DNA of 53,616 bases from a virus, in IMG/VR virus record IMGVR_UViG_3300042881_003221, positions 1-53,616 of that record; one strand, written 5' to 3'. Position 1 is the stretch's first letter; every line of letters begins with the position of its first letter. Shown here one piece after another: positions 5,205 to 46,631 of the stretch. The translations under genes were made by a program, and so were the position numbers. The notes below the pieces were generated by a model. That model saw only the letters and a program-made list of their open reading frames with translations, did not search any database and was not told where the DNA came from.

Positions 5205-6098
5205 ATGCTTCAAGAGCGTTTGAATATACAACCGAGCGGAACGAAGGACAACAACAAAGGCGATGGTGACAAGATGTGGCTACACGCCATGCTCCATCGC
5301 GGGCGGACTGAACGCATCACAACAATCGTCATGATCACGCCAGAACTGGCAAAGGCCATGCTCGAATTGAACAAGGGCAATCGTCCAATCGGCGAGAACC
5401 GCGTCAAGCGGCACATGGAACGGTTGAAGTCCGGGACGTTCATATTGACACATCAAGGGATTGCGTTCGCTGATGATGGCACGTTGAACGATGGCCAGCA
5501 CCGTCTGACCGCCATTGCTCAAAGCGGCGTCGGCGCGGAAATGCAAGTTACGTTCGGCGCGTCGCGTGATGAGTTTCTCGTTGTGGACAAGGGAGACCGT
5601 CGGACGTCGGGCGACGACCTAAACATCATGCGTATGAGCTACGGCAATATCAGGGCATCCGTGTCGCATCGGCTATATTCGATTGAGCATGGGATCGTCG
5701 GATCAATCGACCCCGAAATTGTCACTCAACATGCGCAACAAAACGCCAACGAGCAAATGGAACTGGCGCTAACTACGGCCTATCGGCTGAAGAAAATCAC
5801 CCAGCCAACAGCATCTGCTCTGGCACATTATTGGATTGCAACCAGGACGAAACAATCTAAGGCAAGACAGGATGATTTTTGGGGCGGATTGATAACCGGC
5901 GAGAATATCAGCGGTGTCCTGTTGAAACTTCGCGAGTGGCTGAAGGATGAAAAGCCTGAACAACACAACTATGCACACCAGAATGTGGTAATCGCCGCCG
6001 TCATCATCCTCGGTTGGAACTCGTTTAACCGCCGGGGCATAAAAGCACTCCAACACAAGTCATGGCCGCACATTATTAAACTACCGGAGCCGGTATGA
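5205..6098 (+). CDS. ParB/sulfiredoxin-fold DNA-binding protein
   Basis: 297 residues from ATG 5205 (GGAG 8 bp upstream). The segment NRPIGENRVKRHMERLKSG, then GIAFADDGTLNDGQHRLTAI and VDKGDRRTSGDD, resembles ParB-like nuclease-domain proteins of phages, with the G-Q-H-R-L signature in place of G-x-R-R. The C-terminal 150 residues are helical and I do not recognise them. Such proteins are often linked to phage DNA modification or transcription control, not partition. No parA neighbours it; a second ParB-like gene follows with a 4-bp overlap. Confidence 0.7.
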   Translation: MLQERLNIQPSGTKDNNKGDGDKMWLHAMLHRGRTERITTIVMITPELAKAMLELNKGNRPIGENRVKRHMERLKSGTFILTHQGIAFADDGTLNDGQHRLTAIAQSGVGAEMQVTFGASRDEFLVVDKGDRRTSGDDLNIMRMSYGNIRASVSHRLYSIEHGIVGSIDPEIVTQHAQQNANEQMELALTTAYRLKKITQPTASALAHYWIATRTKQSKARQDDFWGGLITGENISGVLLKLREWLKDEKPEQHNYAHQNVVIAAVIILGWNSFNRRGIKALQHKSWPHIIKLPEPV

Positions 6099-8481: not shown

Positions 8482-8504
8482 ATACCGGATAAATGGGGGC
8501 TGGC

Positions 8505-8711
8505 ATGGAACGTTTCGAGATGAGACTACCAAGGGAGGCGGTGGGGCAAATCGACGCGCTCGCCACTGAGCAAGGGCTTTCCCGCGCGGCCGTCGTGCGC
8601 CGCGCGATCGGCGTCCTGGCCACGGCGGAGGGGCGCGCGGTCGGGTCCTATGTCGGGATCACCCGAAACCGGGAGGCGTTGGACGTGGTTTTGATGGGGG
8701 CGCGGCAATGA
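8505..8711 (+). CDS. Ribbon-helix-helix (CopG/Arc-type) DNA-binding protein
   Basis: 68 residues from ATG 8505. The beta strand ERFEMRLPREAVGQIDALA followed by EQGLSRAAVVRRAIGVL is the classic RHH pattern (short strand, helix, turn, helix). RHH proteins dimerise and insert the strand in the major groove, and this one may autoregulate the AT-rich promoter just upstream. ATG 8493 is an alternative, but the GGGGG stretch favours 8505. The next gene overlaps by 4 bp. Confidence 0.75.
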   Translation: MERFEMRLPREAVGQIDALATEQGLSRAAVVRRAIGVLATAEGRAVGSYVGITRNREALDVVLMGARQ

Positions 8712-44385: not shown

Positions 44386-44672
44386 GGGGTGGTCTCCCAT
44401 TGCATCCACGCACTGCGCTGGAACCTAGTGTTGAACGGCGACCAAACGTCCGGCTGGCGTTCGCAGAACCGCCATTCCAGCGTATCGGGTGGCGTGTCAT
44501 AGGCAGCAACGACCGCAGCCTTGGCTGCGTCTTCGTTCTCAGCTTTTATAGCGGCACAAACTGTGTCCGCACCATCAAGGCGGGTGCCAGACACCCACCA
44601 CGGCGAGTGCAACTCAAACGCGCCGAGCGCGTCAATGTCATGATACCAGGATAGCCAATAATTGCGGGTCAT
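44382..44672 (-). CDS. Hypothetical protein
   Basis: 96 residues. NYWLSWYHDIDALGAFELHS PWWVSG then AIKAENEDAAKAAVVAAYD suggest a small ferredoxin-like or DUF-type fold with Trp-rich strands followed by a helix. Not recognised further. ATGA overlap with the MarR-like gene. Confidence 0.65.
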   Translation of the reverse strand: MTRNYWLSWYHDIDALGAFELHSPWWVSGTRLDGADTVCAAIKAENEDAAKAAVVAAYDTPPDTLEWRFCERQPDVWSPFNTRFQRSAWMQWETTP

Positions 44673-44968
44673 TCCACCACCCGCCCAGCTTCCACCGCCC
44701 TAAGGCAATCCCGCCCCGCGTCGGTCAGGCTCACCACGCACGTCCGCCGATCGCCGCAGAGGTATTCCGTCGTGACCAGTCCGGCGCCCACGAGCGTCAC
44801 CACAGCCCGCGAGATAATCGGCCGCTGTCTGCCGATCGCCTCGGCCAGCGTCTTGACCTGCCGGTTCTCCGGCTTCTTCTCCCGCCGCGCGACGAACATC
44901 ACCGCGAGTTCGATCAGCGAACGCCGGTGATGGCTGGCCAGGGCAATGATGATATTGGGAATTGACAT
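44669..44968 (-). CDS. MarR-type winged-helix regulator
   Basis: 99 residues from ATG 44968 (AAGGAA 7 bp upstream). RSLIELAVMFVARREKKPEN, KTLAEAIGRQRPIISRAVVT LVGAGLVTTEY and VVSLTDAGRDCLRAV form the helix-turn-helix plus wing of a MarR-like regulator. First gene after the strong promoter at 45001-45028; may control it. Effector unknown. Confidence 0.8.
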   Translation of the reverse strand: MSIPNIIIALASHHRRSLIELAVMFVARREKKPENRQVKTLAEAIGRQRPIISRAVVTLVGAGLVTTEYLCGDRRTCVVSLTDAGRDCLRAVEAGRVVE

Positions 44969-45000
44969 TATGGGTTCCTTCCGGGGCATCCGGTTTGGGA

Positions 45001-45028
45001 ATTATGTATGGTCCGCAATCGTTGTCAA
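45001..45028 (-). promoter_or_regulatory. Near-consensus leftward promoter
   Basis: Reading leftward: TTGACA (45028-45023), 16-bp spacer, CATAAT (45006-45001), eleven of twelve consensus bases. It overlaps the final codons of the gene at 45002-45220. Upstream lies a perfect dyad CAATT-T-AATTG (45026-45036) touching the -35 box, a candidate operator. Drives 44968 and genes downstream. Confidence 0.75.
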
Positions 45029-45220
45029 TTTAATTGTTGCGCGCGCCGCTTCCAAAGCCTCGGGGCACCGCCCCCAAGCATCCAGCAGCAACATCACCAT
45101 GTGCGGGGTCGGGTGGACGCCGCGCAGCCATTTATAGACCGTCGAAGTCGTCACCCGGACGATCGCGGCGAACGTCTCGGGGGTGAGGTCGTGGCGGGAT
45201 AGGGTGTCGCGGAGGGTCAT
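45002..45220 (-). CDS. Cro/YdaS-type helix-turn-helix protein
   Basis: 72 residues: LRDTLSRHDLTPETFAAIVR VTTSTVYKWLRGVHPTPHMV is an XRE helix-turn-helix with a Y-K-W recognition helix. Last gene before the 45001-45028 promoter, which overlaps its 3-prime end, so its mRNA passes through the promoter it may regulate. ATGA overlap with the gene upstream. Confidence 0.75.
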   Translation of the reverse strand: MTLRDTLSRHDLTPETFAAIVRVTTSTVYKWLRGVHPTPHMVMLLLDAWGRCPEALEAARATIKLTTIADHT

Positions 45221-46223: not shown

Positions 46224-46270
46224 CGTCTCGTTCCTTTCTCTCGGCCCGGCCATCCCGTCCCGATGCACCC

Positions 46271-46320
46271 CTTATATTGGCGTTACGCCACACGGTCAAT
46301 AGGAAAATGGCGATACGCCA
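46271..46320 (-). promoter_or_regulatory. Strong leftward promoter with two palindromic operators
   Basis: Reading leftward: TTGACC (46299-46294), 17-bp spacer, TATAAG (46276-46271). A 13-bp palindrome TGGCG-N3-CGCCA lies at 46278-46290, exactly between -35 and -10; a second TGGCG-N3-CGCCA is at 46308-46320, upstream of -35, centres 30 bp apart. A dimeric repressor here would block RNA polymerase, and cooperative binding at helically phased sites is possible. Confidence 0.8.
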
Positions 46321-46340: not shown

Positions 46341-46631
46341 TCATGCCTTGTCTCCCATGTCCGCATCAATCGCCGTCGTCCACGCGTCGTGCATATCGCT
46401 GATCGTCCGGCAGTCGGGAGGCGCAGGCGGCATGAACCCGACCACGATGGCGTGCCCATGTCCGACTGGCCGGAGGTCGACCATTTCCCGAACATGCCGA
46501 AACCGCGCCGCATCCCTCGCCAGTTCCTTGATCTGGTCAGGCGTCACGGCCAGCCATAGCCGCGCCCATTCTCCGGTTTCCGTTGCCGCCTCGCATTGGG
46601 CGATCAGCGCGCGGAGGTCGTCTGTGGTCAC
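46341..46631 (-). CDS. Small phage protein
   Basis: 96 residues from GTG 46631 (GTGA). LRALIAQCEAATETGEWARL then DAARFRHVREMVDLRPVG, with the D-A-x-R-F/Y-R-x-x/V-R motif seen in small early phage proteins. No function known. Last gene of the coupled run coming from the pentapeptide gene. Confidence 0.65.
   Translation of the reverse strand: MTTDDLRALIAQCEAATETGEWARLWLAVTPDQIKELARDAARFRHVREMVDLRPVGHGHAIVVGFMPPAPPDCRTISDMHDAWTTAIDADMGDKA

Follow-up and report, generated by a model that had tools for sequence, protein, structure and literature searches.

A predicted leftward phage operon with paired operators in its promoter and a candidate XRE autorepressor

The leftward operon and its promoter

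The sequence analysed, referred to here as the window, comprises positions 1–53,616 of IMG/VR virus record IMGVR_UViG_3300042881_003221. Its rightward genes specify siphophage terminase, portal, head, tape measure, tail and endolysin proteins, while a leftward block carries ThyX, an AAA ATPase and a PDDEXK protein. The promoter considered here, together with the genes which follow it, lies within the leftward block (Table 1). At positions 1–350 a 15-bp tandem repeat encodes a pentapeptide-repeat protein in the leftward direction (10 protein letters not shown), which the contig end truncates.

Table 1. Features of the leftward promoter and predicted operon (window coordinates)
Feature	Coordinates	Strand	Basis and remarks
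Operator site B, TGGCG-N3-CGCCA, putative	46308..46320	.	Exact match; upstream of −35
-35 element TTGACC	46294..46299	-	Sequence; relatives all TTGACG
Operator site A, TGGCG-N3-CGCCA, putative	46278..46290	.	Exact match; inside 17-bp promoter spacer
-10 element TATAAG	46271..46276	-	Sequence; relatives TATAAG/TATAAA or TACAAG/TATAAG, by group
Conserved leader TGCATCGGGACGGGATGGCCGG, 22 bases	46246..46267	-	At transcript start; single copy in window
First operon gene, 70 aa	46011..46223	-	ORF; AAGGA + ATG
Second gene, 73 aa	45753..45974	-	ORF
Third gene, 97 aa	45446..45739	-	ORF; tblastn ~90% identity in L264/L267/L269
Fourth gene, 67 aa	45217..45420	-	ORF; 4-bp overlap with XRE gene start
XRE/MqsA-like HTH protein, 72 aa, proposed autorepressor	45002..45220	-	HTH_3; AF2 model; co-variation with operators

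The preliminary description had placed two TGGCG-N3-CGCCA palindromes in a leftward promoter, one in the spacer and the other upstream of the −35 element, with centres 30 bp apart. Both are exact matches, the promoter reads TTGACC-N17-TATAAG on the minus strand, and the coordinates bear out the placement, since the 17-bp spacer (46293..46277, minus strand) contains site A and the centre-to-centre distance to site B is 30 bp. In the minus-strand reading site A is TGGCGTAACGCCA and site B is TGGCGTATCGCCA. The promoter was omitted by an automated promoter scan because its −10 element ends in G.

These are the only two perfect copies in the whole 53.6-kb contig. Markov simulations gave an expectation of 0.26–0.64 perfect copies per window by chance, and a pair of 5-3-5 palindromes with the same arms no more than 60 bp apart in 2.5% of simulated windows, a figure which leaves out the exact placement in the spacer. 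With up to two mismatches allowed the motif was not enriched in the contig (69 observed vs. 74 expected). The remark that the palindrome was not noticed elsewhere thus holds for this contig, but not beyond it, as unrelated phages and prophages likewise have the motif in promoter spacers. Among these are the unrelated loci L126 (2275–2760), L041 (7705–8652) and L019 (6072–6474), where it lies beside XRE genes; the neighbours are an XRE/ImmA-like pair in L126 and an XRE gene with an S24-like repressor in L041, and the operator is possibly convergent. Pairs of the palindrome adjoin genes for Arc-like ribbon-helix-helix proteins in L009 (2131–2864) and L016 (7221–7739), the two proteins sharing ~54% identity over 42 residues. 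L075 and L076, relatives by way of an AAA_24 protein, are without such a promoter, and the L075 contig has one perfect copy inside a primase-like gene.

Translation of the first gene most likely begins at ATG 46223, which has AAGGA upstream; GTG 46268, at about the position of the transcription start, was rejected in its favour. The four small genes are separated by 36, 13 and 25 bp, and the small HTH gene, the start of which overlaps the preceding gene, closes the series (46223 to 45002), which we predict to be an operon. None of the four small genes scored above the cut-off in Pfam, NCBIfam or PADLOC family searches. A promoter-like sequence, TTGACA-N16-CATAAT (45001–45028, minus strand), lies where the XRE gene ends, ahead of the MarR-like gene 44669–44989.

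The leader has no Rfam family match, its predicted fold is no better than that of shuffled sequences, and no good match to it was found among the phage or plasmid records searched. Nor did the leader pattern find a promoter in a set of Alphaproteobacteria (the class and family of an Acidocella genome), where an XRE profile search recovered distant homologues, all without the motif.

The same promoter in related phages

When the HTH of 744–1271 was used as query, four related contigs (L207–L210) were recovered, three of which have the same promoter with another spacer sequence. This XRE is a stand-alone protein of ~70 aa in L207–L210, while its counterpart in the window carries a fused T5orf172/MUG113 (GIY-YIG-like) domain on its N-terminal side; the window also has an extra XRE gene upstream (451–747), with a TTCCG-N5-CGGAA palindrome at 479–493. 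A second search of viral contigs, with a pattern of 18 bases located shortly after the −10 element, gave 11 viral loci in which an exact copy of this leader core follows the promoter. The stretches from −35 to −10 were aligned ungapped and three groups compared. The window and L010 read TTGACC GTG TGGCG TAA CGCCA A TATAAG, group 2 (L262, L266, L268) reads TTGACG GGT CGCCG TGG GGGCG A TATAAG/A, and group 3 (L264, L267, L269) reads TTGACG GTG CCGCG TGA CGCGG T TACAAG/TATAAG. Records inside each group are near-copies, L010 being the same phage as the window, so that the independent sample consists of three distinct operator–helix pairs from few independent phages.

The promoter register, the two-site layout and the leader are constant in the three groups, the leader being retained directly past the −10 element irrespective of the operator sequence, which is lineage-specific. 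Every group has a second operator copy upstream of −35, at a distance of 30 or 31 bp. Sites A and B of one promoter agree at 12/13 bases in the window and L010, at 9–10/13 in group 2 and at 11/13 in group 3, whereas only 6–8/13 bases of site A are alike when the groups are compared. For a random upstream stretch the probability of reaching a 10/13 match is 0.0027 and that of reaching an 11/13 match 0.00015. Sites A and B have therefore been altered jointly in each promoter, as would be expected if a single protein reads both. The group-2 sites are imperfect palindromes (3–4 of the 5 pairs).

Two further kinds of relative retain the XRE gene and the leader, though the spacers of L263 and of L265, L270 and L271 are without a 5-3-5 palindrome. 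At L263 (4140–4215) ATACGCTCAT spans the spacer and −10 element and GAGCGTAT lies upstream, at approximately the two operator positions. These sequences correspond to the two half-sites of the Aca10 operator as published, ATACGCTCATTGAGCGTAT; L263 agrees with the Aca10 site at 14/19 bases, as good a match being given by 13 of 20,000 shuffles, although this comparison was made post hoc. A sequence comparison of the L263 XRE protein with PDB chains, among them Aca10, gave no match. In L265, L270 and L271 the promoter–leader unit occurs twice, 515 bp apart (leaders at 369 and 884 in L265 and at 5650 and 6165 in L270), and is accompanied by TTGCACA motifs; the XRE protein of these loci is related to Aca2 (E 0.0035).

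The XRE protein and other candidate regulators

The 45002–45220 product matches Pfam HTH_3 (E 7.2e-5, 23.2 bits vs. a cut-off of 23). Its AF2 model (pLDDT 88.8) is a helical XRE fold, the best PDB neighbours of which are XRE proteins, and places the recognition helix at residues 25–33. The XRE gene is present in the predicted operon of all three groups, 0.8–1.05 kb downstream of the promoter. Its recognition helix reads TTSTVYKWL in the window, SHHALSRYV in group 2 and TLSTIERYA in group 3; it is invariant inside group 2 and inside group 3, and among the groups only 0–3 of the 9 residues are identical, as against 13–16 of 20 at the C-terminus. The helix thus changes in parallel with the operators. 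Unlike the helix, the product of the nearby gene 45446 retains ~90% identity between the window and group 3. Helix divergence could instead reflect block exchange of the region, without DNA contact.

We have considered whether another phage regulator reads the operators, the candidates being XRE 451–747, the GIY-YIG/XRE fusion 744–1271, RHH 8493–8711 and MarR-like 44669–44989. All belong to DNA-binding families, and XRE proteins whose helix is of the STV/STY kind present in 744–1271 adjoin TGGCG-N3-CGCCA promoters in L019, L041 and L126; we do not count this shared helix as evidence, as it is too frequent among XRE proteins. The 744–1271 helix QSTVARWEAGSMPARDML is unchanged between the window and L207–L209, whose operators differ, and hence this protein does not track the operator. 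The genes 451–747 and 44669–44989 gave no tblastn match in L207–L209, and the stretch of the relatives which corresponds to RHH 8493 falls outside the compared sequence. The 45002 gene alone among the candidates sits in the operon of all three groups, and we regard a different phage regulator as improbable.

A host regulator might likewise read the palindromes, given that some bacterial and prophage promoters also contain TGGCG-N3-CGCCA. Against this, phages that are close relatives differ in operator sequence but share a constant layout, and the matches of a genome-wide scan for palindrome pairs were for the most part planctomycete and Microbacterium repeats or coding sequence; we consider a host protein very unlikely. 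It is scarcely credible that site B is a weak terminator of the upstream gene and site A coincidental: the 5-bp stem of B precedes a TTTT run and lies ~20 nt beyond the stop codon of gene 46341–46631, but its hairpin, if transcribed, is weak (−6.1 kcal/mol), and in group 3 the T-run is gone (TGATTTG) while the similarity of A and B is retained.

Proposed autorepression and its likeness to known systems

We propose that the 45002–45220 product is a dimeric autorepressor of its own operon, with an MqsA-like HTH and an Aca-like mode of action, acting through sites A and B, and estimate the probability of this reading at about 0.78. Counting against it are the small sample of three operator–helix pairs, the imperfect group-2 palindromes, the spacers of L263 and of L265, L270 and L271, and the absence of the window protein from the MqsA model matches. 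The preliminary description had spoken of cooperative repression by a dimer not yet identified; repression by a dimer now has strong support, and this XRE protein, one of six HTH/RHH products it had named, is a candidate. Upon phage entry the operon would be transcribed from its near-consensus promoter. As the XRE protein builds up, we infer that it would dimerise and occupy site A, where it would cover the promoter spacer and exclude RNA polymerase; the dimer would also occupy site B upstream, and the operon would be shut down by negative autoregulation. Site B, at about −50, may contribute affinity or cooperativity, and cooperativity over three helical turns (a spacing of 30 bp in the window and of 31 bp in its relatives) is plausible.

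The structure and profile neighbours of the protein (HigA2, Aca1, Aca2, 434 Cro and PezA) are autorepressors. All these similarities are weak, and they speak for a similar way of working, short of membership in any of these families.

Among Aca autorepressors the core promoter always contains an inverted repeat, and in several families two or more repeats are present (PMC9410906); acr-aca operons likewise carry inverted repeats, one in the core promoter and often another (PMC9410906, PMC9410881). The locus resembles the operons of Aca1, Aca2 and Aca10 in being a predicted phage operon of small genes with a small HTH gene last, and in having an inverted repeat (site A) within the core promoter, between −35 and −10. 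The 45002 product is weakly similar to Aca1 and Aca2 in fold and in profile (E 0.001–0.002), the profile match to 434 Cro being equally good. Unlike those operons, this one has no gene which matches a family of known function.

MqsA (YgiT), an autorepressor with a C-terminal HTH, likewise has a 5-3-5 palindrome for its operator (PMC4894380, PMC5422877), the sequence being AACCT-N3-AGGTT (PMC4894380); its Asn97 and Arg101 are important for DNA binding (PMC5422877). The Pfam MqsA_antitoxin family is matched above its cut-off of 30 bits by the group-2 orthologue (L266, 34.5 bits); L264 scores 17.4 bits, and the window protein falls below the reporting level. In contrast to MqsA, the 45002 product begins at the HTH and has no N-terminal zinc domain, and no MqsR toxin gene was recognised. 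The residues which we take, from alignment by eye, to correspond to MqsA Asn97/Arg101 are Ser/Lys in the window, His/Arg in group 2 and Ser/Arg in group 3, which may serve as a lead.

The small XRE protein and the paired operators overlapping a promoter also recall phage 434/P22-type Cro, although the 45002 gene lies outside any divergent CI/Cro switch. In lambdoid and Cluster A mycobacteriophage immunity, repressor and operator specificity diverges between related phages (PMC6550527), as here, but those systems have many genome-wide sites as opposed to two at one promoter. Since no tyrosine integrase was found in the 11 records searched, contigs which are possibly incomplete, a lysogenic role is without support; a serine recombinase was found in L263 only among the records searched.

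An unexplained pair of palindromes is thereby turned into a named candidate repressor–operator pair, and at least three matched helix–operator sets in one scaffold should be useful for studying how XRE proteins choose their DNA. We tentatively suggest, as a doubtful extension, that the promoter and leader form a fixed frame for exchangeable repressor–operator pairs and small cargo genes, in which case the XRE proteins might be a new Aca-like family, the cargo new defence inhibitors and the whole a set of undescribed anti-defence cassettes. If the operon is Aca-like, the small genes upstream of the XRE gene would be good candidates for new anti-defence proteins.
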